NCBI GenBank assembly: GCA_921293015.1
Contig: OV121093.1
Location: 25,120,622 to 25,184,621, forward strand
Length of the DNA: 64,000 bases
Direction of reading: 5' to 3'
Source of the DNA: Phorcus lineatus
Lineage: Eukaryota > Mollusca > Gastropoda > Trochida > Trochidae
Part shown: in pieces, positions 35,501-58,539 of the stretch
How positions within the stretch are numbered: position 1 is the first letter of the stretch
Layout of the letters: each line of letters begins with the position of its first letter
Translations under genes and position numbers: made by a program
Notes under the pieces: model-generated
Seen by the model: only the letters and a program-made list of their open reading frames with translations
Databases searched by the model: none
Told to the model about the DNA's origin: nothing

Positions 35501-38500
35501 GTCGTAGGTGATGTTGTCTCGCTTGTTGTGCCACTGGTAGTGGTTGTGGGAGATGTTGTTTCACTTGTTGTGCTACTAGGAGTGGTTGTCGTAGTTGTGG
35601 GAGATGTTGTCTCGCTTGTTGTGCTACTTGGAATGGTTGTCGTAGTCGTGGGTGAAGTTGTCTCACTTGTTGTGCCACTGGTAGTAGTAGTGGGAGATGT
35701 TGTCTCACTTGTTGTGCCACTGGTAGTAGTTGTGGGAGATGTTGTCTCGCTTGTTGTGCCACTGGTAGTAGTTGTGGGAGATGTTGTCTCACTTGTTGTG
35801 CCACTGGTAGTAGTAGTGGGAGATGTTGTCTCGCTTGTTGTGCCACTGGTAGTAGTTGTGGGAGATGTTGTCTCGCTTGTTGTGCTACTAGGAGTGGTTG
35901 TCGTAGTTGTGGGAGATGTTGTCTCACTTGTTGTGCCACTGGTAGTAGTTGTGGGAGATGTTGTTTCACTTGTTGTGCTACTAGGAATGGTTGTCGTAGT
36001 AGTGGGAGATGTTGTCTCACTTGTTGTGCCACTGGTAGTAGTTGTGGGAGATGTTGTTTCACTTGTGCTACTAGGAATGGTTGTCGTAGTAGTGGGAGAT
36101 GTTGTCTCACTTGTTGTGCCACTGGTAGTGGTTGTGGGAGATGTTGTTTCACTTGTTGTGCTACTAGGAATGGTTGTCGTAGTAGTGGGAGATGTTGTCT
36201 CACTTGTTGTGCCACTGGTAGTAGTTGTGGGAGATGTTGTTTCACTTATTGTGCTACTAGGAGTGGTTGTCGTAGTCGTAGGTGATGTTGTCTCGCTTGT
36301 TGTGCCACTGGTAGTGGTTGTGGGAGATGTTGTTTCACTTGTTGTGCTACTAGGAGTGGTTGTCGTAGTTGTGGGAGATGTTGTCTCGCTTGTTGTGCTA
36401 CTTGGAATGGTTGTCGTAGTCGTGGGTGAAGTTGTCTCACTTGTTGTGCCACTGGTAGTAGTAGTGGGAGATGTTGTCTCACTTGTTGTGCCACTGGTAG
36501 TAGTTGTGGGAGATGTTGTCTCACTTGTTGTGCCACTGGTAGTAGTTGTGGGAGATGTTGTTTCACTTGTTGTGCTACTAGGAATGGTTGTCGTAGTAGT
36601 GGGAGATGTTGTCTCACTTGTTGTGCCACTGGTAGTAGTTGTGGGAGATGTTGTTTCACTTGTGCTACTAGGAATGGTTGTCGTAGTAGTGGGAGATGTT
36701 GTCTCACTTGTTGTGCCACTGGTAGTGGTTGTGGGAGATGTTGTTTCACTTGTTGTGCTACTAGGAATGGTTGTCGTAGTAGTGGGAGATGTTGTCTCAC
36801 TTGTTGTGCCACTGGTAGTAGTTGTGGGAGATGTTGTTTCACTTATTGTGCTACTAGGAGTGGTTGTCGTAGTCGTAGGTGATGTTGTCTCGCTTGTTGT
36901 GCCACTGGTAGTGGTTGTGGGAGATGTTGTTTCACTTGTTGTGCTACTAGGAGTGGTTGTTGTAGTTGTGGGAGATGTTGTCTCGCTTGTTGTGCTACTT
37001 GGAATGGTTGTCGTAGTCGTGGGTGAAGTTGTCTCACTTGTTGTGCCACTGGTAGTAGTAGTGGGAGATGTTGTCTCACTTGTTGTGCCACTGGTAGTAG
37101 TTGTGGGAGATGTTGTCTCACTTGTTGTGCCACTGGTAGTAGTTGTGGGAGATGTTGTCTCACTTGTTGTGCCACTGGTAGTAGTTGTGGGAGATGTTGT
37201 TTCACTTGTGCTACTAGGAATGGTTGTCGTAGTAGTGGGAGATGTTGTCTCACTTGTTGTGCCACTGGTAGTGGTTGTGGGAGATGTTGTTTCACTTGTT
37301 GTGCTACTAGGAATGGTTGTCGTAGTAGTGGGAGATGTTGTCTCACTTGTTGTGCCACTGGTAGTAGTTGTGGGAGATGTTGTTTCACTTATTGTGCTAC
37401 TAGGAGTGGTTGTCGTAGTCGTAGGTGATGTTGTCTCGCTTGTTGTGCCACTGGTAGTGGTTGTGGGAGATGTTGTTTCACTTGTTGTGCTACTAGGAGT
37501 GGTTGTCGTAGTTGTGGGAGATGTTGTCTCGCTTGTTGTGCTACTTGGAATGGTTGTCGTAGTCGTGGGTGAAGTTGTCTCACTTGTTGTGCCACTGGTA
37601 GTAGTAGTGGGAGATGTTGTCTCACTTGTTGTGCCACTGGTAGTAGTTGTGGGAGATGTTGTCTCGCTTGTTGTGCCACTGGTAGTAGTTGTGGGAGATG
37701 TTGTCTCGCTTGTTGTGCTACTAGGAGTGGTTGTCGTAGTTGTGGGAGATGTTGTCTCACTTGTTGTGCCACTGGTAGTAGTTGTGGGAGATGTTGTTTC
37801 ACTTGTTGTGCTACTAGGAATGGTTGTCGTAGTAGTGGGAGATGTTGTCTCACTTGTTGTGCCACTGGTAGTAGTTGTGGGAGATGTTGTTTCACTTGTG
37901 CTACTAGGAATGGTTGTCGTAGTAGTGGGAGATGTTGTCTCACTTGTTGTGCCACTGGTAGTGGTTGTGGGAGATGTTGTTTCACTTGTTGTGCTACTAG
38001 GAATGGTTGTCGTAGTAGTGGGAGATGTTGTCTCACTTGTTGTGCCACTGGTAGTAGTTGTGGGAGATGTTGTTTCACTTATTGTGCTACTAGGAGTGGT
38101 TGTCGTAGTCGTAGGTGATGTTGTCTCGCTTGTTGTGCCACTGGTAGTGGTTGTGGGAGATGTTGTTTCACTTGTTGTGCTACTAGGAGTGGTTGTCGTA
38201 GTTGTGGGAGATGTTGTCTCGCTTGTTGTGCTACTTGGAATGGTTGTCGTAGTCGTGGGTGAAGTTGTCTCACTTGTTGTGCCACTGGTAGTAGTAGTGG
38301 GAGATGTTGTCTCACTTGTTGTGCCACTGGTAGTAGTTGTGGGAGATGTTGTCTCGCTTGTTGTGCCACTGGTAGTAGTTGTGGGAGATGTTGTCTCGCT
38401 TGTTGTGCTACTAGGAGTGGTTGTCGTAGTTGTGGGAGATGTTGTCTCACTTGTTGTGCCACTGGTAGTAGTTGTGGGAGATGTTGTTTCACTTGTTGTG

Positions 38501-41500
38501 CTACTAGGAATGGTTGTCGTAGTAGTGGGAGATGTTGTCTCACTTGTTGTGCCACTGGTAGTAGTTGTGGGAGATGTTGTTTCACTTGTGCTACTAGGAA
38601 TGGTTGTCGTAGTAGTGGGAGATGTTGTCTCACTTGTTGTGCCACTGGTAGTGGTTGTGGGAGATGTTGTTTCACTTGTTGTGCTACTAGGAATGGTTGT
38701 CGTAGTAGTGGGAGATGTTGTCTCACTTGTTGTGCCACTGGTAGTAGTAGTGGGAGATGTTGTCTCACTTGTTGTGCCACTGGTAGTAGTTGTGGGAGAT
38801 GTTGTCTCACTTGTTGTGCCACTGGTAGTAGTTGTGGGAGATGTTGTCTCAATTGTTGTGCCACTGGTAGTAGTTGTGGGAGATGTTGTCATGCTTGTTG
38901 TGCTACTTGGAATGGTTGTCGTAGTCGTGGGTGAAGTTGTCTCGCTTGTTGTGCCACTGGTAGTAGTTGTGGGAGATGTTGTCTCGCTTGTTGTGCCACT
39001 GGTAGTGGTTGTGGGAGATGTTGTTTCACTTGTTGTGCTACTAGGAGTGGTTGTCGTAGTTGTGGGAGATGTTGTCTCGCTTGTTGTGCTACTTGGAATG
39101 GTTGTCGTAGTCGTGGGTGAAGTTGTCTCACTTGTTGTGCCACTGGTAGTAGTAGTGGGAGATGTTGTCTCACTTGTTGTGCCACTGGTAGTAGTTGTGG
39201 GAGATGTTGTCTCACTTGTTGTGCCACTGGTAGTAGTTGTGGGAGATGTTGTCTCAATTGTTGTGCCACTGGTAGTAGTTGTGGGAGATGTTGTCATGCT
39301 TGTTGTGCTACTTGGAATGGTTGTCGTAGTCGTGGGTGAAGTTGTCTCGCTTGTTGTGCCACTGGTAGTAGTTGTGGGAGATGTTGTCTCGCTTGTTGTG
39401 CCACTGGTAGTAGTTGTGGGAGATGTTGTCTCTCTTGTAGTGCTACTAGGAGTGGTTGTCGTAGTCGTGGGAGATGTTGTCTCACTTGTTGTGCCACTGG
39501 TAGTAGTAGTGGGAGATGTTGTCTCACTTGTTGTGCTACTAGGAGTGGTTGTCGTAGTCGTAGGTGATGTTGTCTCGCTTGTTGTGCCACTGGTAGTGGT
39601 TGTGGGAGATGTTGTTTCACTTGTTGTGCTACTAGGAATGGTTGTCGTAGTAGTGGGAGATGTTGTCTCACTTGTTGTGCCACTGGTAGTGGTTGTGGGA
39701 GATGTTGTTTCACTTGTTGTGCTACTAGGAATGGTTGTCGTAGTAGTGGGAGATGTTGTCTCACTTGTTGTGCCACTGGTAGTAGTTGTGGGAGATGTTG
39801 TTTCACTTGTTGTGCTACTAGGAATGGTTGTCGTAGTAGTGGGAGATGTTGTCTCACTTGTTGTGCCACTGGTAGTAGTTGTGGGAGATGTTGTTTCACT
39901 TATTGTGCTACTAGGAGTGGTTGTCGTAGTCGTAGGTGATGTTGTCTCGCTTGTTGTGCCACTGGTAGTGGTTGTGGGAGATGTTGTTTCACTTGTTGTG
40001 CTACTAGGAGTGGTTGTCGTAGTTGTGGGAGATGTTGTCTCGCTTGTTGTGCTACTTGGAATGGTTGTCGTAGTCGTGGGTGAAGTTGTCTCACTTGTTG
40101 TGCCACTGGTAGTAGTAGTGGGAGATGTTGTCTCACTTGTTGTGCCACTGGTAGTAGTTGTGGGAGATGTTGTCTCGCTTGTTGTGCCACTGGTAGTAGT
40201 TGTGGGAGATGTTGTCTCGCTTGTTGTGCTACTAGGAGTGGTTGTCGTAGTTGTGGGAGATGTTGTCTCACTTGTTGTGCCACTGGTAGTAGTTGTGGGA
40301 GATGTTGTTTCACTTGTTGTGCTACTAGGAATGGTTGTCGTAGTAGTGGGAGATGTTGTCTCACTTGTTGTGCCACTGGTAGTAGTTGTGGGAGATGTTG
40401 TCTCAATTGTTGTGCCACTGGTAGTAGTTGTGGGAGATGTTGTCATGCTTGTTGTGCTACTTGGAATGGTTGTCGTAGTCGTGGGTGAAGTTGTCTCGCT
40501 TGTTGTGCCACTGGTAGTAGTTGTGGGAGATGTTGTCTCGCTTGTTGTGCCACTGGTAGTAGTTGTGGGAGATGTTGTCTCGCTTGTAGTGCTACTAGGA
40601 GTGACTGTCGTAGTCGTGGGAGATGTTGTCTCACTTGTTGTGCCACTGGTAGTAGTAGTGGGAGATGTTGTCTCACTTGTTGTGCTACTAGGAGTGGTTG
40701 TCGTAGTCGTAGGTGATGTTGTCTCGCTTGTTGTGCCACTGGTAGTGGTTGTGGGAGATGTTGTTTCACTTGTTGTGCTACTAGGAATGGTTGTCGTAGT
40801 AGTGGGAGATGTTGTCTCACTTGTTGTGCCACTGGTAGTAGTTGTGGGAGATGTTGTTTCACTTATTGTGCTACTAGGAGTGGTTGTCGTAGTCGTAGGT
40901 GATGTTGTCTCGCTTGTTGTGCCACTGGTAGTGGTTGTGGGAGATGTTGTTTCACTTGTTGTGCTACTAGGAGTGGTTGTCGTAGTTGTGGGAGATGTTG
41001 TCTCGCTTGTTGTGCTACTTGGAATGGTTGTCGTAGTCGTGGGTGAAGTTGTCTCACTTGTTGTGCCACTGGTAGTAGTAGTGGGAGATGTTGTCTCACT
41101 TGTTGTGCCACTGGTAGTAGTTGTGGGAGATGTTGTCTCGCTTGTTGTGCCACTGGTAGTAGTTGTGGGAGATGTTGTTTCACTTGTTGTGCTACTAGGA
41201 ATGGTTGTCGTAGTAGTGGGAGATGTTGTCTCACTTGTTGTGCCACTGGTAGTGGTTGTGGGAGATGTTGTTTCACTTGTTGTGCTACTAGGAATGGTTG
41301 TCGTAGTAGTGGGAGATGTTGTCTCACTTGTTGTGCCACTGGTAGTAGTTGTGGGAGATGTTGTTTCACTTGTTGTGCTACTAGAAATGGTTGTCGTAGT
41401 AGTCGGAGATGTTGTCTCGCTTGTTGTGCCACTGGTAGTGGTTGTGGGAGATGTTGTTTCACTTGTTGTGCTACTAGGAATGGTTGTCGTAGTAGTGGGA

Positions 41501-44500
41501 GATGTTGTCTCACTTGTTGTGCCACTGGTAGTAGTTGTGGGAGATGTTGTTTCACTTGTTGTGCTACTAGGAATGGTTGTCGTAGTAGTGGGAGATGTTG
41601 TCTCACTTGTTGTGCCACTGGTAGTAGTTGTGGGAGATGTTGTTTCGCTTGTTGTGCCACTGGTAGTGGTTGTGGGAGATGCTGTTTCACTTGTGCTACT
41701 AGGAGTGGTTGTCGTAGTCGTGGGTGATGTTGTCTCACTTGTTGTGCCACTGGTAGTAGTTGTGGGAGATGTTGTTTCACTTGTTGTGCCACTGGTAGTA
41801 GTAGTAGGAGATGTTGTCTCACTTGTTGTGCCACTGGTAGTAGTTGTGGGAGATGTTGTCTCGCTTGTTGTGCTACTAGGAGTGGTTGTCGTAGTAGTGG
41901 GAGATGTTGTCTCACTTGTTGTGCCACTTGTAGTAGTTGTGGGAGATGTTGTTTCACTTGTTGTGCTACTAGGAATGGTTGTCGTAGTAGTGGGAGATGT
42001 TGTCTCACTTGTTGTGCCACTGGTAGTAGTTGTGGGAGATGTTGTTTCACTTGTTGTGCTACTAGGAATGGTTGTCGTAGTAGTGGGAGATGTTGTCTCA
42101 CTTGTTGTGCCACTGGTAGTGGTTGTGGGAGATGTTGTCTCGCTTGTTGTGCTACTAGGAATGGTTGTCGTAGTAGTGGGAGATGTTGTCTCACTTGTTG
42201 TGCCACTGGTAGTAGTTGTGGGAGATGTTGTTTCACTTGTTGTGCTACTAGGAATGGTTGTCGTAGTAGTGGGAGATGTTGTCTCACTTGTTGTGCCACT
42301 GGAAGTAGTTGTGGGAGATGTTGTTTCGCTTGTTGTGCCACTGGTAGTGGTTGTGGGAGATGCTGTTTCACTTGTGCTACTAGGAGTGGTTGTCGTAGTC
42401 GTGGGTGATGTTGTCTCGCTTGTTGTGCCACTGGTAGTAGTTGTGGGAGATGTTGTCTCACTTGTTGTGCCACTGGTAGTAGTAGTGGGAGATGTTGTCT
42501 CGCTTGTTGTGCCACTGGTAGTAGTTGTGGGAGATGTTGTCTCGCTTGTTGTGCTACTAGGAGTGGTTGTCGTAGTTGTGGGAGATGTTGTCTCGCTTGT
42601 TGTGCTACTTGGAATGGTTGTCGTAGTCGTGGGTGAAGTTGTCTCACTTGTTGTGCCACTGGTAGTAGTAGTGGGAGATGTTGTCTCACTTGTTGTGCCA
42701 CTGGTAGTAGTTGTGGGAGATGTTGTCTCACTTGTTGTGCCACTGGTAGTAGTTGTGGGAGATGTTGTCTCGCTTGTTGTGCTACTTGGAATGGTTGTCG
42801 TAGTCGTGGGTGAAGTTGTCTCGCTTGTTGTGCCACTGGTAGTAGTTGTGGGAGATGTTGTCTCGCTTGTTGTGGTACTAGGAGTGGTTGTCGTAGTCGT
42901 GGGTGATGTTGTCTCACTTGTTGTGCCACTGGTAGTAGTTGTGGGAGATGTTGTCTCGCTTGTTGTGCCACTGGTAGTAGTTGTGGGAGATGTTGTTTCG
43001 CTTGTTGTGCCACTGGTAGTGGTTGTGGGAGATGCTGTTTCACTTGTGCTACTAGGAGTGGTTGTCGTAGTCGTGGGTGATGTTGTCTCGCTTGTTGTGC
43101 CACTGGTAGTAGTTGTGGGAGATGTTGTTTCGCTTGTTGTGCCACTGGTAGTGGTTGTGGGAGATGCTGTTTCACTTGTGCTATTAGGAGTGGTTGTCGT
43201 AGTCGTGGGTGATGTTGTCTCGCTTGTTGTGCCACTGGTAGTAGTTGTGGGAGATGTTGTCTCGCTTGTTGTGCTACTAGGAGTTGTTGTCGTAGTCGTG
43301 GGTGATGTTGTCTCGCTTGTTGTGCCACTGGTAGTAGTTGTGGGAGATGTTGTCTCGCTTGTTGTGCTACTAGGAGTGGTTGTCGTAGTCGTGGGTGATG
43401 TTGTCTCGCTTGTTGTGCCACTGGTAGTAGTTGTGGGAGATGTTGTCTCGCTTGTTGTGCTACTAGGAATGGTTGTCGTAGTTGTGGGAGATGTTGTCCC
43501 ACTTGTTGTGCCACTGGTAGTAGTTGTGGAAGATGTTGTCTCACTTGTTGTGCTACTAGGAATGGTTGTCGTAGTAGTGGGAGATGTTGTCTCGCTTCTT
43601 GTGCTACTAGGAATTGTTGTCGTAGTAGTGAGTGATGTTGTCTCACTTGTTGTACCACTTGTTTTTTCTTCTACAAAAAAAAGAATTGTCTCGTTTTTAG
43701 TATTTTGTTAAAGTTCTTTTGTAGGTAATACTGTACTTATGGTACGCCCCTTATACTAATGACAGAATGACAAAAGCACTGCTTAAAGTAAACATGATGT
43801 TAGTTGTTAGTTGATGTTTTGAGTTTGTCTTGGAAACATGGAATTTATTAACTAAGGGTAACAACCTTTCCTTCTTCCTTATTTGTTTTTATTGATCATA
43901 TATTGTTATCCATTTGACTTTGAAACTTCATATATGGTATGACTATTTCAAATATGGTAGTGATTACATTTCTTCTGGGTAACATTTCCAGAAGGGCTAA
44001 CATGTTAAGATTGTGACAGGAGTAACTTGATATGTTAGAGCTGTTTTAGGACTTTAACAATGTATATATTGAAATAGAAACTATGGTATGGATGTTTCAT
44101 AAGTAGTGGTGTTGCGCCTTTTGGGTTACAACTGATAAATGCCTAAACATTAGTAAATATGGACTGAAAACGGCACATTTTTATGTGAAGGTGTGTGAAC
44201 CACCGGCAGGTTTTTTTTTACCTTTGTACGAGTATTTTATCTTGCAATAGGGCAAACTGACCGAGGTTCGGACAACACCTGAGGTCGCCCGAACTTCGGA
44301 CACTTTTACTTGGAGCTGACGCAATAATACGTGCGACTATTGCGATCTGTTTATTGTAAAAAAATTCTTCTTAGTGTGTTATTTCATTTCCTTCCTTTGA
44401 TAAACATTTAATTCTCGGTAATAATTCTTATCGAAGTTTTGCCTGGAGGTACAATTAACGGATTCAAGAAAGAAAATGGCGAAATATTTGTTTCAATTTA

Positions 44501-47500
44501 AAGGTTGACTCTTCGGTCAGGAGATGTCGGGAGCGGCAAAATATCTTAAACTGTATTCATAAACAAAGTAAAACCAAAGAGTCCAATTATTCTTAACATC
44601 GGTACATATGAAGTGAAAACATAAGTAAAAATTGAGATTTTGATAACATGTAACTGATAACTTGGTACGGACAGATTTGATCAAGGTTCGGACACTTCTT
44701 AAGTTTTCTATTTAAGGACTCGTAATGTTTATGTAATGAAAACTTACTGTTAAGCGCTTCCGGCGTCTTTAGTGTCGAGTGCTTACAACTGGGATTGTGA
44801 CGTCACTATGCTGTAACGGCGCATGTACCTTGCAGTTTTCAAAAATTCAACATCGGAAAACATGCTCCGTACCAGTGACAAATTACTTTAACCTCCCCCA
44901 AAACTATAATATTATTGTACATAGCCTATTCACTACGTGAGTGAGGATGTCTGAAAATCATTTTGATGAGTATTTAAAGCTAGGGATGCATTTGAGATGA
45001 TTAGGTGCAACTGTCCGAAGTTAGGGCAGAAGTGTCCGAACCTCGGGCGCGTTGATACATGCGAATAAAACCATTATTTTCGGCTAAAACTGACATAAAT
45101 ATGGCTATAAGGAAAGAAATCAAATTAAATATTAATTTTTTTATACTTTGGTTTGAAAATAATTATTTTCTTCAGATAGTTATAGATTATATAGTCATTC
45201 AAAATAGTTGAATCGATAGACTGTCGGTCAGTTTGCTCTATACGACTTACATCATCTTAATAGAATAGCCTGAAAGTGAACTTTTTAAAAACAACTTCCA
45301 GGGTACTCAATTGTTCTGTAACTCATTAAGTTATGTCATATGTTAATTATATAGATTGTTAATACAAAACAGCCTCATTATACTTAGTATATTAAAAACA
45401 CTGTGTTCTACTTTTAATGAAGTTTGAACGGACTGTTTTATAACACAAGATAAGTTACGAGAAATAGCAAGACAGGTACTATCGGATAAAGCTATGCACG
45501 TAGCAGGTAAAGGAACACTTACTAAACAACCTATCACCATATGAAGAGCCAACGATGTGATGAAAGATCTGCTGTTACTATGCTTTATGTAGAAATTAAA
45601 GAAAAAATTGCTTCTATGAGTGTACTTTTGGCCTGATCTGTTGCCGTTATTGTAGCATTGTTCAAGCTGTTTGGTCGTGACAGATGGCACTAGTAGTCTT
45701 CACATATTTATCATCGATAAAGGTAGTCCCATAAGTGATCTATAGGACTCATGTCTAGCAAACGCACTGGCCACAACAACACAACGACTGCGTTTTACAA
45801 AGGGCCGTCTTTAGAGATGTCTGTCTGTCTCTGTCTGTCTCAATAACAGACAAACATGGTGTCCTTCTTATGTTTGTTTACTGCTGTGCGGCTAAGATGT
45901 TGTATTAGCTCTTGTAAACAGTCAAATTGCAAATTGCAAATGAACTTCCTGTTACATCAGAAAAGGTGATTTTCTGAACTTATGGTAAGCTTTTTAGATT
46001 AACTTGTTTCGATATTTGTTTGGAGAAAGGATTGGTCTTTAGTTGTGTAACAAGGCTCGGTATGGTTTGTTACTTTTTAAAATTTTATGAAATTCTTGGA
46101 TGAGTATACTTTCCACTAATTTAGTTTGGTTTCCTATCCAAATCTTTATGGAAATACGTAGGTTTGAACCACTAAACGAGTGTTCCCATAGGTCGACAAG
46201 TTTAAGGTAAAGAGACGCCAAACACTAATCTAGTAATTCATATATATTTTAAAACTCTATTTGGAAGGGATACTCAATGTTGGTTATTCCGATAAGATGG
46301 TTATCGTTGACTTAACATGGTAAAACGCAAAAGTTTTGTTACATATCTTAATTTATTACCCATATGGTTAATCGTAAGTTGTGATATATTTTCAATATGA
46401 TAACATGTGCTTCGATTACTTTTGCCTATCAACGATTGTTTCAGTTCGAGTTAAGGTATTTCGTCGTCTTCGATGTCATACAACCAATGTTCGAGTCGTC
46501 AATGTAGCGGGCCATCGCAAGGGAAGCAGGACTGCATATCTGAATATTGCCATGCGTTTTAGATTGAAGCGAATCGGTAATAACGTAACTATTACCCTCG
46601 GATGTGAGTCATGTGACTTTAACGAAACGAGTGTGAATTTATGTAATAACCTCGCTTTCGCTCGGGTACTAAAAATATTCACGCTCGTTTCGTAACAGTC
46701 ATATGACACACTCCTTATCGTCATTCTAGAAAGGTTTTTTACTTTCACAACACCCAAAGGAATGGTAAATGACATGTTTATACAACTTTACTACAACGAT
46801 ATGTGCTTCATTGCTAGTCTTTATCATTCCCACGTCTGTGCATATTGTGTAGAGTTACATGTTAATCAAATTCAGGAAATCTCATCCACAAACGCCCGTG
46901 GAGCTCTTTATCATAAAAAGATTCAGTAAATACCTACCTTCAACACAAGCAGTGATGACAATTTGAGACAAGTCAAAACCAACAGGGGCAATTGCAAAAA
47001 TGACTTTTGGACCATAAGCACTTTGCTGAAAAACAAATGATCTTTATTAAAAAGAAGGTAGAGATGGTCTTTCAATTTAAACTTACGATTGTAAATATTC
47101 ACTAGAAATGAAGAGTTTGTTTGTATTGACTGACCAGGATAGTTGGACTGTTTGTGGAGACTCGCCAGAATAGTTGGACTGTTTGAAGAGACTCACCAGG
47201 TTGAGTAGACTATGTTTAGACTCACCAGGATGGGTACACTATGTTTAGACTCACCAGGATGGATACACTATGTTTAGACTCACCAGGATGGGTACACTAT
47301 GTCTAAACTAACCTTTTTAGAACACTATGTTTAAATTCACCAGGATGGATACACTATGTTTAGACTCACCAGGATGGGTACACTATGTTTGAACTCACCA
47401 AGATGGGTACACTATGTTTAGACTCACCAAGTTAGTACACAATTTTTAGACTCACATGGATGGGTACACTATGTTTACACTCACCAGGATGGGTACACTA

Positions 47501-50500
47501 TGTCTAAACTCACCAGGTAAGTAAACTATGTTTAGATTCACCAGGATGGATACACTATGCCTAAACTCACCAGGTTAGTACACTATGTTTCGACTCACCA
47601 GGATGGGTACACTATGTCTAAACTCACCAGGCTAGTACACTATGTTTAGACTTACCAGGATGGGTACACTATGTTGAGACTCACCAGGATGGGTACACTA
47701 TGTTGAGACTCACCAGGTTAGTACACTATGTTAAGACTCACCAGGATGGATACACTATGTCTAAACTCACCAGGGTAGTACACTATGTTTAGACTCACCA
47801 ATATTGGTAGATTATATCTTAAATCACCAGGTTAGTACACTATGTTTAGACTCACCAGGATGGATACACTATGTCTAAACTCACCCGGTTAGAACACTAT
47901 GATTAGACTCACCAGGTTAGTACACTATGTTTAAACTCACCAGGTTAGTACACTAGCTATGTTTAGACATATCAGGATGGGTACACTATGTTTAGACTCA
48001 CAAATATGGGTAGACTTCGTCTTAAATCACCAGGTTAGTGCACTATGTTTTGACTTACCAGGTTAGTACACTATGCTAAGACTCACCAGGATGGGTAGAC
48101 TTGAGGGCACTGTGAGCTCCTCGAGCTCGAAGTAGCTGGCGCCAGGGGCAGTGGTGTTAAGAACCACGGGATTCAGGCCCGTTGGCTGAACGATCTGAGT
48201 AACGCCTCCATAAGTTGTTATTGTTGCTTCGCCTGGAAATAGTGAAGTTTTATCACATTTGGTCACTACATGTTGTTAGCCAATTGTTTGCGACTGTGAG
48301 TCCAACAACTCGCCACTAACACTGTTTTTCTGTCGACTTGTTCTCAAATATATAGGATGGTTTCTATATTTGACCACATTTTCATAAAACGTTTAGAGCT
48401 GTCAAAAACGAGTTTGATTCGTGAAACATTGTTATGCTTTTATTGTCCACATTAAACCAAACGGATGCAAAAATTTAGTCAACAAGATAACAAGTCTATC
48501 ACGTGGGAACAGGCGGGTCTCACTAACGTCATAAGTTAGCCAACATGTGTTGTGAAGATTTTTTTACCGCCTCATAAGGATCAAACGTTTTCTCATACAT
48601 GTTGTCAAACTAGATTAACAGTGATACGGAATATAAACTGTCTATAATACATGTTGCTCCTTGTCGAGCGGATGGACTGTTTCTTCTGGCAAAAAGGTGT
48701 ACATTATTGAACGCAAGTCAATGAATATGTGCTGCTACATATATGATTGAGTTCCCCTGAACTTTATAGAGATAAGAATTGTGATTTTTTAAAGTTTGGA
48801 ACTGACTATCTCCAAGGACACATTCTATGGATACTTATGCACTCCCTAGCCGGTCATCAATCGCTACCAATAGCCTATGTAGGAACCTAATCTACATTCA
48901 GTTCCCTTTTGATAAATCTAAAGAAGGTTTATGTTTGTATACAACCTCACTGTTCAGTGAACTTACCTTGTACTACTATTTCATTGCTTCCATTCAAGAT
49001 AAGTACGGTAGAATGGAATTCAGCCCCTTCTATCAGTTCCTGAAACATTAAATGTGTTGCGATCATACCGAAATCAAATCTCTGTGACGGTATATTGATC
49101 TCAGTATTAGTTAAATACTTGTATCAATGAGTAGTCAGTATCCAATAGTCACTAGTATTAGTTAGATTCTTGTATCAATGAGTAGTCAATATGCAATAGT
49201 CACTAGTCTTAGTTAGATTCTTGTATCAATGAGTAGTCAATATGCAATAGTCATTAGTATTAGTTAGATTCTTGTATCAATGAGTAGTCAATATGCAATA
49301 GTCACTAGTATTAGTTAGATGCTAGTATCAATGAGTAGTCAGTATCCAATAGTCACTAGTATTAGTTAGATTCTTGTATCAATGAGTAGTCAGTATCCAA
49401 TAGTCACTAGTATTAGTTAGATTCTTGTATCAATGAGTAGTCAATATGCAATAGTCACTAGTATTAGTTAGATGCTAGTATCAATGAGTAGTCAGTATCC
49501 AACAGTCACTAGTATTAGTTAGATTCTTGTATCAATGAGTAGTCAAAATGCAATAGTCACTAGTATTAGTTAGATTCTTGTATCAATGAGTAGTCAATAT
49601 GCAATAGTCACTAGTATTAGTTAGATTCTTGTATCAATGAGTAGTCAATATGCAATAGTCACTAGTATTAGTTAGATTCTTGTATCAATGAGTAGTCAAT
49701 ATGCAATAGTCACTAGTATTAGTTAGATTCTTGTATCAATGAGTAGTCAATATGCAATAGTCACTAGTATTAGTTAGATGCTAGTATCAATGAGTAGTCA
49801 GTATCCAATAGTCACTAGTATTAGTTAGATGCTTGTATCAATAAGTAGTCAATATGCAATAGTCACTAGTCTTAGGTAGATGCTAGTATCAATGAGTAGT
49901 CAATATGCAATAGTCACTAGTCTAAGGTAGATGCTAGTATCAATGAGTAGTCAATATGCAATAGTCACTAGTCTTAGATATATAGATGCATGTTCAAAGA
50001 AAATGTATTGATGTTCCGCAACCACTGCAGTCAGATGAATCCCCGGATTGAGAAGTAGTTTTTTTCAGCAACAGGTTCTCCCCTGATTGAGAAGGAATTC
50101 TCTTAAGCAACCAGTGCTTAATCCCCGGATGGAGAAGTATTTATGTTCAGCAACATGTGCAGTCAGTGCTTAATCCCCTGATTGTTAAGTAAACTTGGAT
50201 GATAATTGACGAGTGACGGCGAATGACAGGTTATCTTTCCTGAGTTATATCAATTTCGTTATTCTCGAGCCTTTTACAGAATTAACACAACGAGGGAAAG
50301 ATAATTTGCATTACACGTTCCTCCAAGTTATTGTTTACCCAAACGTTCGTCAAAGATATAAACTGAAATATTTTAGGAATAAAAGTTTCTTTTTAAAGGA
50401 TTAAAATAAACTTTATATGTCGTAACAAAATTAAGAGGAGTTTTCCATAAACATCCTTGAGACGTTACCAATCTTGCGTTAATAAAAACATTGTCACATA

Positions 50501-53500
50501 CTTACAACTTTATTTCTTTGGAGTAAAAAGGTCACGTTCTTAATCCCTTGACCAGATATGTCAACCACCTCGCCTTCAACAGCTACAGACACCAACTGAT
50601 CACCAGTAGAAGTTAACAAAGGTTCATTTGACAGATTATACGAGTTTAGCTGGTTGGCATTAGTACAGAAGCTGGGAGATGTTGTCTCGCTTGTTGTGCC
50701 ACTAGTAGTAGTTGTGGGAGATGTTGTCTCGCTTGTTGTGCCACTGGTAGTAGTTGTGGGAGATGTTGTCTCACTTGTTGTGCCACTGGTAGTAGTTGTC
50801 GGAGATGTTGTCTCACTTGTTGTGCTACTAGGAATGGTTGTCGTAGTAGTGGGAGATGCTGTCTCGCTTGTTGTACCACTGGTAGTTGTAGTGGGAGATG
50901 TTGTCTCACTTGTTGTGCTACTAGGAATGGTTGTCGTAGTAGTGGGAGATGTTGTCTCGCTTGTTGTGCTACTAGAAGTGGTTGTCGTAGTAGTGAGAGA
51001 TGCTGTCTCGCTTGTTGTACCACTGGTAGTTGTAGTGGGAGATGTTGTCTCACTTGTTGTGCTACTAGGAATGGTTGTCGTAGTAGTGGGGGATGTTGTC
51101 TCGCTTGTTGTGCCACTGGTAGTGGTTGTGGGAGATGTTGTTTCGCTTGTTGTGCTACTAGGAATGGTTGTCGTAGTAGTGGGAGATGTTGTCTCGCTTG
51201 TTGTGCTACTAGGAGTGGTTGTCGTAGTAGTGGGAGATGCTGTCTCGCTTGTTGTACCACTGGTAGTTGTAGTGGGAGATGTTGTCTCACTTGTTGTGCT
51301 ACTAGGAATGGTTGTCGTAGTAGTGGGAGATGTTGTCTCGCTTGTTGTGCTACTAGAAATGGTTGTCGTAGTAGTGGGAGATGCTGTCTCGCTTGTTGTA
51401 CCACTGGTAGTCGTAGTGGGAGATGTTGTCTCACTTGTTGTGCTACTAGGAATGGTTGTCGTAGTAGTGGGGGATGTTGTCTCGCTTGTTGTACCACTGG
51501 TAGATGTAGTGGGAGATGTTGTCTCACTTGTTGTGCTACTAGGAATGGTTGTCGTAGTAGTGGGAGATGTTGTCTCGCTTGTTGTGCCACTGGTAGTAGT
51601 TGTGGGAGATGTTGTCTCACTTGTTGTGCTACTAGGAATGGTTGTCGTAGTAGTGGGGGATGTTGTCTCGCTTGTTGTACCACTGGTAGATGTAGTGGGA
51701 GATGTTGTCTCACTTGTTGTGCTACTAGGAATGGTTGTCGTAGTAGTGGGAGATGTTGTCTCGCTTGTTGTGCCACTGGTAGTAGTTGTGGGAGATGTTG
51801 TCTCACTTGTTGTGCTACTAGGAATGGTTGTCGTAGTAGTGGGAGATGTTGTCTCGCTTGTTGTGCTACTAGAAGTGGTTGTCATAGTAGTGGGAGATGC
51901 TGTCTCGCTTGTTGTACCACTGGTAGTTGTAGTGGGAGATGTTGTCTCACTTGTTGTGCTACTAGGAATGGTTGTCGTAGTAGTGGGGGATGTTGTCTCG
52001 CTTGTTGTGCCACTGGTAGTAGTTGTGGGAGATGTTGTCTCACTTGTGCTACTAGGAATGGTTGTCGTAGTAGTGGGGGATGTTGTCTCGCTTGTTGTAC
52101 CACTGGTAGTTGTAGTGGGAGATGTTGTCTCACTTGTTGTGCTACTAGGAATGGTTGTCGTAGTAGTGGAAGATGTTGTCTCGCTTGTTGTACCACTGGT
52201 AGTAGTTGTGGGAGATGTTGTTTCGCTTGTTGTGCTACTAGGAATGGTTGTCGTAGTAGTGGGGGATGTTGTCTCGCTTGTTGTACCACTGGCAGTAGTT
52301 GTGGGAGATGTTGTCTCACTTGTTGTGCTACTAGGAATGGTTGTCGTAGTAGTGGGGGATGTTGTCTCGCTTGTTGTGCCACTGGTAGTTGTTGTGGGAG
52401 ATGTTGTCTCGCTTGTTGTGCCACTGGTAGTGGTTGTGGGAGATGTTGTCTCACTTGTTGTGCTACTAGGAATGGTTGTCGTAGTAGTGGGAGATGTTGT
52501 CTCGCTTGTTGTGCTACTAGGAGTGGTTGTCGTAGTAGTGGGAGATGCTGTCTCGCTTATTGTACCACTGGTAGTTGTAGTGGGAGATGTTGTCTCACTT
52601 GTTGTGCTACTAGGAATGGTTGTCGTAGTAGTGGGAGATGTTGTCTCGCTTGTTGTGCTACTAGAAGTGGTTGTCGTAGTAGTGGGAGATGCTGTCTCGC
52701 TTGTTGTACCACTGGTAGTCGTAGTGGGAGATGTTGTCTCACTTGTTGTGCTACTAGGAATGGTTGTCGTAGTAGTGGGGGATGTTGTCTCGCTTGTTGT
52801 ACCACTGGTAGATGTAGTGGGAGATGTTGTCTCACTTGTTGTGCTACTAGGAATGGTTGTCGTAGTAGTGGGAGATGTTGTCTCGCTTGTTGTGCCACTG
52901 GTAGTAGTTGTGGGAGATGTTGTCTCACTTGTTGTGCTACTAGGAATGGTTGTCGTAGTAGTGGGAGATGTTGTCTCGCTTGTTGTGCTACTAGAAGTGG
53001 TTGTCGTAGTAGTGGGAGATGCTGTCTCGCTTGTTGTACCACTGGTAGTTGTAGTGGGAGATGTTGTCTCACTTGTGCTACTAGGAATGGTTGTCGTAGT
53101 AGTGGTGGATGTTGTCTCGCTTGTTGTACCACTGGTAGTTGTAGTGGGAGATGTTGTCTCACTTGTTGTGCTACTAGGAATGGTTGTCGTAGTAGTGGAA
53201 GATGTTGTCTCGCTTGTTGTACCACTGGTAGTAGTTGTGGGAGATGTTGTCTCACTTGTTGTGCTACTAGGAGTGGTTGTCGTAGTAGTTGTGGGAGATG
53301 TTGTCTCGCTTGTTGTGCCACTGGTAGTTGTAGTGGGAGATGTTGTCTCACTTGTTGTGCTACTAGGAATGGTTGTCGTAGTAGTGGGAGATGTTGTCTC
53401 GCTTGTTGTGCCACTGGTAGTAGTTGTGGGAGATGTTGTCTCACTTGTTGTGCTACTAGGAATGGTTGTCGTAGTAGTTGTGGGAGATGTTGTCTCGCTT

Positions 53501-56500
53501 GTTGTACCACTGATAGTAGTTGTGGGAGATGTTGTCTCACTTGTTGTGCCACTGGTAGTAGTTGTGGGAGATGTTGTCTCACTTGTTGTGCTACTAGGAA
53601 TGGTTGTCGTAGTAGTGGGAGATGTTGTCTTGCTTGTTGTGCCACTGGTAGTAGTTGTGGGAGATGTTGTCTCACTTGTTGTGCTACTAGGAATGGTTGT
53701 CGTAGTAGTGGGAGATGTTGTCTCGCTTGTTGTGCCACTGGTAGTAGTTGTGGGAGATGTTGTCTCGCTTGTTGTGCCACTGGTAGTAGTTGTGGGAGAT
53801 GTTGTCTCACTTGTTGTGCTACTAGGAGTGGTTGTCGTAGTAGTTGTGGGAGATGTTGTCTCGCTTGTTGTGCCACTGGTAGTTGTAGTGGGAGATGTTG
53901 TCTCACTTGTTGTGCTACTAGGAATGGTTGTCGTAGTAGTGGGAGATGTTGTCTCGCTTGTTGTACCACTGATAGTAGTTGTGGGAGATGTTGTCTCACT
54001 TGTTGTGCTACTAGGAATGGTTGTCGTAGTAGTGGGAGATGTTGTCTCGCTTGTTGTGCCACTGGTAGTAGTTGTGGGAGATGTTGTCTCGCTTGTTGTG
54101 CCACTGGTAGTAGTTGTGGGAGATGTTGTCTCACTTGTTGTGCTACTAGGAGTGGTTGTCGTAGTAGTTGTGGGAGATGTTGTCTCGCTTGTTGTGCCAC
54201 TGGTAGTTGTAGTGGGAGATGTTGTCTCACTTGTTGTGCTACTAGGAATGGTTGTCGTAGTAGTGGGAGATGTTGTCTCGCTTGTTGTGCCACTGGTAGT
54301 AGTTGTGGGAGATGTTGTCTCACTTGTTGTGCTACTAGGAATGGTTGTCGTAGTAGTTGTGGGAGATGTTGTCTCGCTTGTTGTACCACTGATAGTAGTT
54401 GTGGGAGATGTTGTCTCACTTGTTGTGCCACTGGTAGTAGTTGTGGGAGATGTTGTCTCACTTGTTGTGCTACTAGGAATGGTTGTCGTAGTAGTGGGAG
54501 ATGTTGTCTCGCTTGTTGTGCCACTGGTAGTAGTTGTGGGAGATGTTGTCTCACTTGTTGTGCTACTAGGAATGGTTGTCGTAGTAGTGGGAGATGTTGT
54601 CTCGCTTGTTGTGCCACTGGTAGTAGTTGTGGGAGATGTTGTCTCGCTTGTTGTGCCACTGGTAGTAGTTGTGGGAGATGTTGTCTCACTTGTTGTGCTA
54701 CTAGGAGTGGTTGTCGTAGTAGTTGTGGGAGATGTTGTCTCGCTTGTTGTGCCACTGGTAGTTGTAGTGGGAGATGTTGTCTCACTTGTTGTGCTACTAG
54801 GAATGGTTGTCGTAGTAGTGGGAGATGTTGTCTCGCTTGTTGTACCACTGATAGTAGTTGTGGGAGATGTTGTCTCACTTGTTGTGCTACTAGGAATGGT
54901 TGTCGTAGTAGTGGGAGATGTTGTCTCGCTTGTTGTGCCACTGGTAGTAGTTGTGGGAGATGTTGTCTCGCTTGTTGTGCCACTGGTAGTAGTTGTGGGA
55001 GATGTTGTCTCACTTGTTGTGCTACTAGGAGTGGTTGTCGTAGTAGTTGTGGGAGATGTTGTCTCGCTTGTTGTGCCACTGGTAGTTGTAGTGGGAGATG
55101 TTGTTTCACTTGTTGTGCTACTAGGAATGGTTGTCGTAGTAGTGGGAGATGTTGTCTCGCTTGTTGTGCCACTGGTAGTAGTTGTGGGAGATGTTGTCTC
55201 GCTTGTTGTGCCACTGGTAGTTGTAGTGGGAGATGTTGTCTCGCTTGTTGTGCCACTGGTAGTAGTTGTGGGAGATGTTGTCTCACTTGTTGTGCTACTA
55301 GGAGTGGTTGTCGTAGTAGTTGTGGGAGATGTTGTCTCGCTTGTTGTGCCACTGGTAGTTGTAGTGGGAGATGTTGTCTCACTTGTTGTGCTACTAGGAA
55401 TGGTTGTCGTAGTAGTGGGAGATGTTGTCTCGCTTGTTGTACCACTGATAGTAGTTGTGGGAGATGTTGTCTCACTTGTTGTGCTACTAGGAATGGTTGT
55501 CGTAGTAGTGGGAGATGTTGTCTCACTTGTTGTGCTACTAGAAGTGGTTGTCGTAGTAGTGGGAGATGTTGTCTCGCTTGTTGTACCACTGATAGTAGTT
55601 ATGGGAGATGTTGTCTCACTTGTTGTGCTACTAGGAATGGTTGTCGTAGTAGTGGGAGATGTTGTCTCGCTTGTTGTGCCACTGGTAGTAGTTGTGGGAG
55701 ATGTTGTCTCACTTGTTGTGCTACTAGGAATGGTTGTCGTAGTAGTGGGAGATGTTGTCTCGCTTGTTGTGCCACTGGTAGTAGTTGTGGGAGATGTTGT
55801 CTCGCTTGTTGTGCTACTAGAAGTGGTTGTCGTAGTAGTTGGAGATGTTGTCTCGCTTGTTGTAGCACTGGTAGTTGTAGTAGTGGGAGATGTTGTCTCA
55901 CTTGTTGTGCTACTAGAAGTGGGTGTCGTAGTAGTTGGAGATGTTGTCTCGCTTGTTGTACCACTGATAGTAGTTATGGGAGATGTTGTCTCGCTTGTTG
56001 TGCCACTGGTAGTTGTAGTGGGAGATGTTGTCTCACTTGTTGTGCTACTAGAAGTGGTTGTCGTAGTAGTGGGAGATGTTGTCTCGCTTGTTGTGCCACT
56101 GGTAGTAGTTGTGGGAGATGTTGTCTCGCTTGTTGTACCACTGGTAGTGGTAGTGGGAGATGTTGTCTCGCTTGTTGTGCCACTGGTAGTAGTAGTGGGA
56201 GTTGTTGTCTCACTTGTTGTGCTACTAGGAATGGTTGTCGTAGTAGTTGGAGATGTTGTCTCGCTTGTTGTACCACTGGTAGTTGTAGTTGTTGCAGATG
56301 TTGTCTCGCTTGTTGTGCTAATAGAAGTGGTAGTCGTAGTAGTTGGAGATGATGTCTCGCTTGTTGTACCACTGATAGTAGTTGTGGGAGATGTTGTCTC
56401 ACTTGTTGTGCTACTAGGAATGGTTGTCGTAGTAGTGGGAGATGTTGTCTCGCTTGTTGTGCCACTGGTAGTAGTTGTGGGAGATGTTGTCTCGCTTGTT

Positions 56501-58253
56501 GTACCACTGGTAGTGGTAGTGGGAGATGTTGTCTCACTTGTTGTGCCACTGGTAGTAGTTGTGGGAGATGTTGTCTCGCTTGTTGTGCTACTAGAAGTGG
56601 TTGTCGTAGTAGTTGGAGATGTTGTCTCGCTTGTTGTGCCACTGGTAGTAGTTATGGGCGATGTTGTCTCACTTGTTGTGCTACTAGAAGTGGTTGTCGT
56701 AGTAGTGGGATATGTTGTCTCGCTTGTTGTGCCACTGGTAGTAGTAGTGGGAGATGTTGTCTCGCTGGTTGTGCCACTGGTAGTAGTTGTGGAAGATGTT
56801 GTCTCGCTTGTTGTGCCACTTGTAGTAGTTGTGGGAGATGTTGTTTCGCTTGTTGTGCCACTGGTAGTAGTTGTGGGAGATGTTGTCTCACTTGTTGTAC
56901 CACTGGTAGTAGTTGTGGGAGATGTTGTTTCGCTTGTTGTGCTACTAGGAATGGTTGTCGTAGTAGTGGGAGATGTTGTCTCGCTTGTTGTGCCACTGGT
57001 AGTAGTTGTGGGAGATGTTGTCTCGCTTGTTGTACCACTGGTAGTTGTAGTGGGAGATGTTGTTTCGCTTGTTGTGCTACTAGGAGTGGTTGTCGTAGTA
57101 GTGGGAGATGTTGTCTCGCTTGTTGTGCCACTGGTAGTAGTTGTGGGAGATGTTGTCTCGCTTGTTGTACCACTGGTAGTTGTAGTGGGAGATGTCGTCT
57201 CACTTGTTGTGCTACTAGGAATGGTTGTCGTAGTAGTGGGAGATGTTGTCTCGCTTGTTGTGCCACTGGTAGTAGTTGTGGGAGATGTTGTCTCGCTTGT
57301 TGAACCACTGGTAGTTGTAGTGGGAGATGTTGTCTCGCTTGTTGTGCTACTAGAAGTGGTTGTCATAGTAGTGGGAGATGTTGTCTCGCTTGTTGTATCA
57401 CTGATAGTAGTTGTAGTGGGAGATGTTGTTTCACTTGTACCACTGGTAGTAGTTGTGGGAGATGTTGTCTCACTTGTTGTGCTACTAGGAATGGTTGTCG
57501 TAGTAGTGGGAGATGTTGTCTCGCTTGTGCCACTGGTAGTAGTTGTGGGAGATGTTGTCTCGCTTGTTGTGCCACTGGTTGTAGTTGTGGGAGATGTTGT
57601 CTCGCTTGTTGTGCTACTAGGAATGGTTGTCGTAGTAGTGGGAGATGTTGTTTTGCTTGTTGTGCCACTGGTTGTAGTTGTGGGAGATGTTGTTTCGCTT
57701 GTTGTGCTACTAGGAATGGTTGTCGTAGTAGTGGGAGATGTTGTCTCGCTTGTTGTGCCACTGGTAGTAGTTGTGGGAGATGTTGTCTCGCTTGTTGTGC
57801 CACTGGTAGTAGTTGTGGGAGATGTTGTCTCGCTTGTTGTGCCACTGGTTGTAGTTGTGGGAGATGTTGTCTCGCTTGTTGTGCTACTAGGAATGGTTGT
57901 CGTAGTAGTGGGAGATGTTGTCCCACTTGTTGTGCCACTGGTTGTAGTTGTGGGAGATGTTGTTTCACTTGTTGTGCTACTAGGAATGGTTGTCGTAGTA
58001 GTGGGAGATGTTGTCTCGCTTGTTGTGCCACTGGTAGTAGTTGTGGGAGATGTTGTCTCACTTGTTGTGCTACTGGTAGTGGTTTTCGTAGTAGTGGGAG
58101 ATGTTGTTTCGCTTGTTGTGCCACTGGTAGTAGTTGTGGGAGATGTTGTCTGGCTAGTTGTGCCACTGGTGGTAGTTGTAGTAGATGTGGTAACGCTTGT
58201 CATGCCACTTGTCGCGGTTGTGGGAGATGTTTCTTCTGAACTGCCAGTTGTTC
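32505..58253 (-). CDS. Giant secreted-type mucin gene (5' end not found)
   Basis: Model on the minus strand, 5' to 3': 58253-50506, 49039-48967, 48232-48087, 47025-46938, 43670-34125, then less certain 33716-33639, 32973-32922, 32826-32730, 32543-32505. All junctions are GT..AG and phase-compatible. The two long exons are pure Thr/Ser/Pro/Glu repeats (PTS domains), which in known mucins are heavily O-glycosylated and extended. The three exons between them encode a non-repetitive beta-rich linker. The reading direction follows from these splice sites and from the sensible protein they complete; the plus-strand frames through the same DNA are artefacts. No signal peptide exon was found; it must lie upstream of 58253, possibly beyond the window. 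An extracellular gel or coat function is inferred from composition only. Confidence 0.75.
32730..32826 (-). CDS. Candidate 3' exon encoding CYNSWVTALD
   Basis: Acceptor TATGTTGCAG, donor GTAAGT (strong). Phase 2 to phase 0. Encodes CYNSWVTALDTAFRGAQQMH then PVFFTLKKEVEM, with ordinary protein composition. No family recognised. It may belong to the mucin C-terminus or to a separate small gene. Confidence 0.4.
32922..32973 (-). CDS. Candidate mucin 3' exon (52 bp)
   Basis: Acceptor CACCATCAG, donor GTGACT (weak). Phase 1 to phase 2. Encodes EINDGDGISNLIETTA. The open frame also extends upstream past the chosen acceptor (FYIPPSA), so the start is uncertain. Confidence 0.3.
33639..33716 (-). CDS. 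Candidate mucin 3' exon (78 bp)
   Basis: Acceptor ATCATTTTAAG, donor GTATGT. Phase 1 to phase 1, in frame with the array A donor. Encodes GSPQQIQFSFAISISNLLVI then AASNY, a hydrophobic beta-like pattern reminiscent of VIFAIAPVGFD in the linker. The exon is short and the acceptor has only a modest pyrimidine tract, so a chance frame is possible. Confidence 0.35.
34125..43670 (-). CDS. Mucin exon with PTS array A (9,546 bp single exon)
   Basis: The acceptor TTCTTTTTTTTTGTAG lies just upstream (higher coordinates). The exon opens EKTSGTTSETTSLTTTT and then holds about 3,170 residues of the same 14- and 17-residue modules as array B. The frame is open throughout; I checked much of 40441-43670 codon by codon and found no stop. 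It could end at a GTATAA donor (exon end 34125, phase 1) or read through to TAA at 34104-34102 (ending GIMRIEY). I prefer splicing because compatible exons follow, but the donor is weak. Higher-order repetition is visible between 35.4 and 40.9 kb. Confidence 0.82.
43671..44249. other. Intron sequence, nothing recognised
   Basis: Start of the 3.3-kb intron upstream of array A; AT-rich without repeats until the TIR element. Confidence 0.5.
44250..45238. mobile_element. 989-bp TIR element with TA target duplication
   Basis: GGGCAAACTGACCGA at the left end is inverted at the right end as TCGGTCAGTTTGCTC (one mismatch), and TA flanks both sides. Inner inverted words (GTTCGGACA.. and ..TGTCCGAAC) lie near each end. 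No transposase frame survives. TA duplication suggests a Tc1/mariner-driven MITE. It sits in the mucin intron. Confidence 0.6.
45239..46600. other. Intron sequence, no gene called
   Basis: A 115-codon minus-strand frame (45343-45690) has no recognisable motif. The plus strand across the same region reads short protein-like pieces (DKLREIARQVLSDKAMH) broken by stops, possibly an old transposon ORF. Neither is strong enough to call. Confidence 0.35.
46601..46713. repeat. Imperfect fold-back, about 40-bp arms
   Basis: Left arm GTGAGTCATGTGAC..AACGAAACGAGTGTGAAT pairs with right arm ATTCACGCTCGTTTCG..GTCATATGACACAC around a CTCGCTTTCGCTCG centre. Probably a small MITE relic. Confidence 0.55.
46938..47025 (-). 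CDS. Mucin linker exon (88 bp)
   Basis: Acceptor TTTGTTTTTCAG, donor GTAGGT. Encodes QSAYGPKVIFAIAPVGFD then LSQIVITACVE, phase 0 to phase 1. Its final G joins AA of the next exon to make Glu, giving ACVEEEKTSGTT at the entry to array A. The Cys here is probably the partner of the Cys in SFCTN, 153 residues earlier. Confidence 0.8.
47130..48095. repeat. 29-bp intronic minisatellite carrying the 5' splice-site sequence, about 31 copies
   Basis: Plus-strand unit GACTCACCAGGATGGGTACA then CTATGTTTA; on the coding strand it reads CATCCTG^GTGAGTC followed by TAAACATAGTGTACC. The first copy on the coding side contains the end of exon 48232-48087 and its donor. Roughly two thirds of the copies keep an intact GGTGAG core; others vary (TTCACC, CTTACC, GGTTAG for GGATGG). 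Confidence 0.9.
48087..48232 (-). CDS. Mucin linker exon (146 bp)
   Basis: Acceptor CACTATTTCCAG. Encodes EATITTYGGVTQIVQPTG then LNPVVLNTTAPGASYFELEE and ends VPSSLPIL, phase 1 to phase 0. The donor is GTGAGT at 48086-48081. The last exon bases, CTACCCATCCTG, plus this donor recur dozens of times in the following intron as a 29-bp minisatellite. Confidence 0.8.
48240..48960. other. Intron sequence between mucin linker exons
   Basis: AT-rich, nothing recognised apart from the flanking splice signals. Confidence 0.5.
48967..49039 (-). CDS. Mucin linker exon (73 bp)
   Basis: Acceptor AATGTTTCAG and donor GTAAGT. Encodes ELIEGAEFHSTVLILNG then SNEIVVQ, entering in phase 0 and leaving in phase 1. 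It matches the end of the upstream array exon and the start of the next exon. Contains one N-glycosylation sequon (NGS). Confidence 0.8.
49085..49985. repeat. 51-bp intronic minisatellite, about 17 copies
   Basis: Unit CACTAGTATTAGTTAGATTC then TTGTATCAATGAGTAGTCAA then TATGCAATAGT. Variants: ATGCTAG for ATTCTTG, and AGTATCC for AATATGC. Starts about 45 bases upstream (coding sense) of exon 49039-48967. Confidence 0.93.
50010..50200. repeat. Degenerate repeat around AATCCCCGGATTGAGAAGTA
   Basis: About four partial copies of a unit with CCC(C/T)TGATTGAGAAG and CAGCAACA. The rest up to 50505 is AT-rich intron. Confidence 0.6.
50506..58253 (-). CDS. Mucin exon with PTS array B (7,748 bp single exon)
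   Basis: The acceptor TTATTTTGGCAG lies directly upstream (higher coordinates) and the exon begins in phase 1. About 2,520 residues consist of two modules, SGTTSETTSPTTTT (42 bp) and a 17-residue form with IPSS or TPSS (51 bp), plus Thr-run variants. The last 58 or so residues leave the repeat: SFCTNANQLNSYN through EGEVVDISGQGIKNVTFLLQ. The donor GTAAGT occupies 50505-50500, phase 0. Point variants (SSSTTSE, ISGTTSE, SATTSE) show that the array is diverging but no stop was created. Confidence 0.85.
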
Positions 58254-58539
58254 CTGCCAAAATAACGTAAATGAAGTTTAGTTACTGTTTTTTTCTTTTT
58301 GTTCGTTAAATCCTTAGTTCTTATATTGAATGATTTTATTTTAATTTTCCATTTACACCTTTTGCTTACGTTATTGCTTGCTCTCATTAAAGTTGTTTCA
58401 AATATTGTTGAAAACCTCTGTAATTGAGTAATTTATCTGACATTATAGCATATGAAAGCAAAATCATTACCTCATGTAGTATATGAAAGCAAAATGTAGT
58501 ATATATGAATACTGATTTACAGCTTTTAGAAACAGTTTC

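Follow-up and report, generated by a model that had tools for sequence, protein, structure and literature searches.

The subject here is a 64,000-nucleotide stretch of DNA from the gastropod mollusc Phorcus lineatus (GenBank assembly GCA_921293015.1, contig OV121093.1, positions 25,120,622 to 25,184,621 of the forward strand), which we call the window and whose positions are counted from its first letter. On its minus strand is a mucin-like gene in which the 3' end of a small predicted exon, exon C, is followed by a minisatellite. The repeat unit is homologous to that exon end on one side and to the start of the intron on the other, and the array is a tandemly duplicated exon/intron boundary. 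We favor, with a probability of about 0.8, the explanation that this is a splice-donor version of what has been called a mirage in amphioxus, meaning that the boundary was duplicated, that the array expanded as a passive by-product, and that splicing takes place at the first donor. What carries this is the homology, the restriction of the unit to one locus, the reading frame, an in-frame stop, and a like architecture at other genes in which a conserved exon end is the source. The features at the boundary are these.

48087 to 48232, minus strand: predicted exon C (linker), phase 1 to 0, whose last 15 nucleotides form the exon part of the seed unit
48080 to 48086, minus strand: GTGAGTC, presumed to be the true 5' splice site; first register out of 34
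47122 to 48101, minus strand: boundary-copy minisatellite, the exon unit followed by 33 more copies at a spacing of 28-32 bp
48063 to 48065, minus strand: TAA, in frame when exon C is extended to any downstream register donor

Homology of the array to the exon end

Exon C ends in AGTCTACCCATCCTG, after which the intron starts with GTGAGTC. The repeat unit consists of the last 15 nucleotides of the exon and about 14 of the intron. On the exon side, the last 15 nucleotides match at least 8 array units at 14 of 15 positions, while among 125,828 other 15-mers of the window on both strands none matches any unit at 14/15 and 3 do so at 13/15. The exon-side homology fades past about 15-17 nucleotides. 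On the intron side, 12 of the first 14 positions are the same in the unit belonging to exon C and in the array consensus. The preliminary description of this DNA had matched the end of an exon at 48232-48087, with donor GTGAGTC, to the repeat unit, and both halves of that match hold, for an exon that is predicted. Exon C has a boundary-copy score of 43. By the same measure exons A, B, and D of this gene (see below) score 5-8, and none of 32 control GTRAGT sites in array-free parts of the window exceeds 9.

Tandem Repeats Finder (TRF) reports a 29-bp unit in 31.8 copies from 47189 to 48101, reaching 15 nucleotides into exon C, and a wrap-around alignment extends the registers down to 47122, for a total of 34 including the exon unit. 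The array is thus real, as described earlier, but slightly longer than the roughly 31 copies of a 29-bp unit then counted, with 28-bp and 29-bp units mixed. The first register is the exon C donor itself, and those following are at +28, +56, and +85. The two main unit types are one of 28 bp with TACTAACC and one of 29 bp with TACCCATCC, and the far end has diverged 31-bp units. The last three units have a mean identity to all others of 0.67-0.74, and some interior units are equally low (0.67, 0.70). GT is present at the donor register in 31 of the 33 downstream copies. Of the 18 exact occurrences of the 9-mer CTGGTGAGT in the window, 17 are in the array and one is at exon C; 100 shuffles have 1.02 on average.

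A 24-mer from the unit, searched with up to 3 mismatches against the 958-Mb genome, has all of its 16 matches in this array (counts that may be lower bounds), and a single copy of the array locus was found in the one assembly. With the unit found at only one place in the genome, the array was most likely born at this locus. The 28-bp units also contain TACTAAC, which resembles the branch-point consensus. We considered and rejected it as a meaningful signal, as its count in the window is no higher than expected (12 versus 14.1), with 7 of the 12 within the array.

The predicted gene around the array

The mucin-like gene has two very large threonine/serine/proline-rich (T/S/P-rich) open frames, 50494-58281 and 34102-43707. 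They are connected by a linker in which three small exons (B, C, and D) are predicted. The other predicted exons are as follows.

50506 to 58281, minus strand: predicted exon A, T/S/P-rich mucin array and start of the linker domain; a stop-to-stop frame of 2595 amino acids whose high coordinate is the edge of the open frame, not a mapped 5' end; donor GTT/GTAAGT, phase 0, weak with a score of 2.2
48967 to 49039, minus strand: predicted exon B (linker), phase 0 to 1, donor AAG/GTAAGT
46938 to 47025, minus strand: predicted exon D (linker), phase 0 to 1, donor AAG/GTAGGT
34102 to 43670, minus strand: predicted exon E, the next mucin array, a 3201-amino-acid open frame with matching phase; it starts at 43670 and its low end is the limit of the stop-to-stop open frame

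Joined, predicted exons A to E have phases 0/1/0/1 at the four junctions and give 5,851 codons without a stop. Because A and E were chosen as stop-to-stop frames, this test of the frame rests on the junctions together with B, C, and D. Exon C, as predicted, fits its neighbors in phase, and its GC content is 0.55 versus 0.37 in the intron upstream. Nothing in Pfam scored above the cut-off with the linker protein. Of five matches from a search of the genome for linker paralogues, four fall on exons of the mucin-like gene itself, and the remaining one has E = 1.85.

Two observations concern other repeats near this gene. At 63090-63998 on the minus strand there is a 303-amino-acid open frame with about six threonine-rich repeats of 51 amino acids (a 153-bp unit), possibly a further upstream mucin-type exon of the same gene. 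At 49103-49977 there is a 51-bp minisatellite of 17.2 copies at 94% identity in the intron directly upstream of the exon B acceptor, with no overlap with the acceptor.

Downstream donors and the in-frame stop

Reading through from exon C gives ...SLPIL VSLSIVY and then the TAA, which precedes the second register. All 31 downstream registers that keep GT are beyond it (this concerns the donors at the registers, as distinct from weaker GTs inside the first unit, ahead of the TAA). Given the predicted phase of exon C, productive isoforms with repeat-coded inserts made by way of register donors are excluded for this allele. The earlier proposal, in which splicing at downstream donors adds repeat sequence to the linker, therefore fails at 31 of 31 registers.

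Donor strength was scored from a base-frequency table and the U1 5' end. The array holds 20 decoys scoring above 5 in less than 1 kb, compared with 12 such sites in the remaining 63 kb of that strand, and none scoring above 7, of which there are 4 elsewhere on the strand. Across the 31 intronic units, 10 of 186 cells of the donor hexamer are changed, as against 17 of 248 in the CATAGTGT spacer (p = 0.55). The hexamer is better kept than the +7..+20 stretch as a whole, with 54 of 434 cells changed (p = 0.009). The donor hexamer is not singled out for conservation, and weak selection remains compatible with these counts. The U1-binding cluster and the buffer against donor mutation suggested in the preliminary description remain hypothetical roles.

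Sister loci in the same genome

Further loci of this kind were sampled as places with three tandem GGTGAGT among the matches listed for contig C1 and the first 15.4 Mb of contig C2, about 95 of the 958 Mb, giving 18 loci and 16 distinct arrays, with the window locus not counted. The call of an exon end was made from the true edge of the array for 11 of the 18. At 10 of the 18, the array starts where a predicted exon ends and copies that boundary; the loci were picked for the donor motif, so this is not a rate for minisatellites generally. The other eight (L048, L051, L063, L049, L053, L057, L060, and L061) have no convincing exon end. The ten are as follows.

L052 (G000:C1:20069500-20078500, array at L052:1648-2570): PPC decarboxylase exon ending GLCDNLL
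L050: glutamate-cysteine ligase exon ending FLIPISK; 23.8 copies, 22 exon nucleotides matched
L062: ethanolamine-phosphate phospho-lyase-like (ETNPPL-like) exon; three clear copies plus decayed ones, the latter recognized by eye
L054: PEBP-like gene; weak PEBP match (0.033) and another in a later open frame (0.001), both below the Pfam cut-off; PDB 0.98
L055: Ig-domain gene, transmembrane-like exon; I-set significant in another upstream frame
L058: amino-acid-permease-type transporter; AA_permease significant in another upstream frame
L064 (G000:C2:15399900-15409000): INTS1; INTS1 domain significant in another upstream frame
L056: PARP-like gene; weak PARP match (0.051) in an upstream frame and none in the exon itself, with at least part of the open frames covered
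L047 and L059: an open frame and unit homology alone

The names SLC35F-like and PARP6/8-like among the ten loci are ones that we take to apply. Support for the ten is uneven. The exon-side match is at least 18 nucleotides in 7 of them and short in L058 (10 nucleotides), L062 (7), and L064 (8). Protein homology runs up to or near the donor in 3 of the 10, namely L052, L050, and L062, and the array-side exons of L055, L058, and L064 have no significant match.

In L052, all 43 of the 43 exon residues given are aligned to the plant enzyme PDB ID: 1mvl. The array has a 34-bp unit, composed of the last 18 exon nucleotides and 16 intron nucleotides, in 27.1 copies at 100% identity with 27 in-register GGTGAGT sites, and is a very young boundary-copy array. 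The next PPC decarboxylase exon is beyond it, by a reading of the sequence by eye. In L050, the Pfam GCS match (1.6e-13) runs through the last residue of the exon. L062 has a PDB match at 2.8e-10 and a Pfam match at 0.00027, below the Pfam cut-off. Since the exon ends of L050 and L052 are old protein sequence, copying at these two loci ran from exon to array.

Two side observations come from the sampled loci. After 29 copies of a 39-bp unit in L064, the coding-like LLKACIADS.SRLRA.VEHLQNPQSTR recurs downstream, which suggests a duplicate of the exon end itself on the far side of the array. L048, L051, and L063 have a dispersed 38-bp GGTGAGTGACAGTCGAGTCACTGACG... array with a near-identical upstream flank at all three places; a mobile element may have carried it.

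Explanation of the array and its alternatives

As we picture it, a segment of about 29 bp, reaching from the last nucleotides of exon C into its intron, would have been duplicated in tandem through replication slippage or unequal exchange and would then have expanded into the intron by about 33 extra copies. The first copy, with the coding end and a working donor, would be held by selection, and the remaining copies would be non-coding decoys in the course of decay. The exon-proximal donor would normally be the one spliced, because later registers bring in the TAA and hence a truncated and probably degraded message. Arrays of this kind may survive because duplicating the whole exon end together with its donor leaves the first junction intact. 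Slippage, first-donor use, and passivity are most likely in our judgment. Tandem duplication of the boundary had already been proposed as the origin in the preliminary description, and it is upheld by the homology spanning the junction, the unit confined to the locus, and the sister loci in conserved genes.

Several points weigh against this account. Exon C and the donor that is used are both predictions. The second donor, CTG/GTAAGT at 48058, scores 6.8 compared with 6.3 for the first, so sole use of the first donor is not self-evident; with scores this nearly equal, the first donor would have to win by its position or by exon signals, or else some transcripts are lost. The downstream repeat donors of the human IFI6 minisatellite are in fact used, according to excerpts of PMC4526556. 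With no clear linker paralogue or orthologue found, the direction of copying is not shown by the window locus itself, where exon to array would follow by analogy with L050 and L052. Even in L050, the alignment to the sole PDB relative, 3ig5, ends six residues before the donor (E = 0.0054). Finally, GGTGAGT triplets number 1698 genome-wide versus 811 for a reversed-motif control, but GGTAAGT triplets show no excess over control (1049 versus 1203); these figures count matches, and long arrays weigh heavily in them. A simple claim of donor-array enrichment was dropped because of the GGTAAGT result.

The analogy with L050 and L052 also bears on the possibility that the array came first, with an intronic minisatellite supplying the donor and exon C later extending into the first unit, in which case SLPIL would derive from the repeat. 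As this would have it, the unit is shared by no more than about the last 15 nucleotides of exon C, and no orthologue or paralogue dates SLPIL as old. A few units near both ends of the array share the CTA state of exon C, which does not fix the direction. We nevertheless think this order of events improbable, because the exonic half is old protein sequence in the PPC decarboxylase and glutamate-cysteine ligase loci, and because the unit was not found elsewhere in the genome. A little less doubtful, and still unlikely, is that the array works as a decoy, its donors recruiting U1 or competing with the true donor while nonsense-mediated decay clears the unproductive junctions and copy number sets expression. 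The crowding of decoys scoring above 5 (20, against 12 in the other 63 kb) speaks for it, as do the 31 downstream register donors, every one unproductive, and the better keeping of the hexamer relative to +7..+20. Stronger sites scoring above 7 are nonetheless all outside the array, and the hexamer is no better kept than the spacer.

The other two alternatives are much less credible. That the minisatellite is an ordinary intronic one beside the exon by chance has in its favor a window rich in tandem repeats (46 TRF rows, some overlapping), but we hold it to be very improbable given 14/15 exonic identity with the exact donor register and the recurrence at 10 of 18 sampled loci. Protein variation through multiple donors, in which downstream sites add repeat-coded residues to the linker domain, has a precedent in IFI6 (in excerpts of PMC4526556), and 17 downstream sites have the 9-mer of the true donor. 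With an in-frame stop for 31 of 31 downstream register donors, this is the faintest of the prospects.

Generality and significance

The main interest of the splice-donor mirage is its many sister loci. Whether boundary-copy minisatellites form a genome-wide class, with exon ends of ordinary conserved genes repeatedly seeding donor arrays, we regard as an even bet. Extrapolating from 10 in about 95 of 958 Mb, there are perhaps about 100 such arrays genome-wide for the GGTGAGT motif alone. If such a class exists, the spliceosome must routinely pick the exon-proximal site among many near-equal donors, and the genome offers a natural setting in which to test donor choice and intron birth. Already at the window locus, dozens of near-identical donors behind the real one amount to a natural experiment on 5' splice site choice. 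The arrays range from 27 perfect copies in PPC decarboxylase to decayed remains in the ETNPPL-like gene, and this range would make array birth and decay, the effect on splicing, and the intron-origin idea directly testable. Compared with the known mirages, what is new in these loci is the phylum, the high number of copies, and the recurrence in different genes.

Other features of the window and genome

At 62017-62520 on the minus strand is a 168-amino-acid frame with no Pfam match, which we take to resemble the C-terminal part of a long interspersed nuclear element (LINE) reverse transcriptase. At 22829-25394 is a 57-bp minisatellite of 45 copies at 96% identity, with long open frames on both strands. 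The genome has 16 haemocyanin beta-sandwich matches, arranged on one contig as two clusters of eight, and none was found in 14 control genomes. The family is a molluscan one, eight units to a gene suit a gastropod-like host, and the matches point to a mollusc. The GFP family, looked for as an amphioxus marker, was not found, a weak negative given that the control genomes gave no match either.

Comparison with known systems

Intron gain by tandem duplication of AG/GT proto-splice sites is like the window array in being a tandem duplication at a splice junction and differs in that no new intron or exon is predicted at the window array. Literature under the name mirage describes boundary arrays for amphioxus, and among the mollusc papers listed no title or abstract opening describes such arrays in a mollusc. 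Excerpts of a cone-snail intron paper (PMC3862624) and a Caenorhabditis elegans minisatellite paper (PMC4039745) describe no boundary-copy arrays.

The IFI6 minisatellite with its multiple splice donors was reportedly described by Turri et al. in 1995. In the human IFI6 (6-16) gene, two downstream repeats act as donors, producing three mRNA species (excerpts of PMC4526556). The window array is alike in that the units behind the exon carry the donor consensus, here with GT in 31 of 33 and an identical 9-mer in 17, and unlike in that the TAA in the first intronic unit bars productive use of the register donors.

The amphioxus mirages, as given in excerpts of PMC3087553 and PMC3902484, are minisatellite-like tandem copies that straddle the junction of an exon with an intron, whether at the donor or the acceptor. 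They occur in Adh3 and the globins BflGb6 and BflGb9, and the name has been extended to troponin C and likened to PGBD5. The unit of the Adh3 mirage is 10-72 bp, units at the cluster edge in BflGb6 escape homogenization, and regular splicing is reportedly left undisturbed. Mirages have been proposed as a source of introns (PMC3087553, in excerpt). With exon C as predicted, the window array has the anatomy that defines a mirage and lacks the isoform feature of IFI6. As in amphioxus, the unit spans the boundary, the homology is on both sides, and the array abuts the boundary in register; unlike amphioxus, the host is a mollusc, there are about 33 extra copies, and the architecture is seen repeatedly within a single genome, at 10 of 18 sampled loci, where the amphioxus cases are known one gene at a time.

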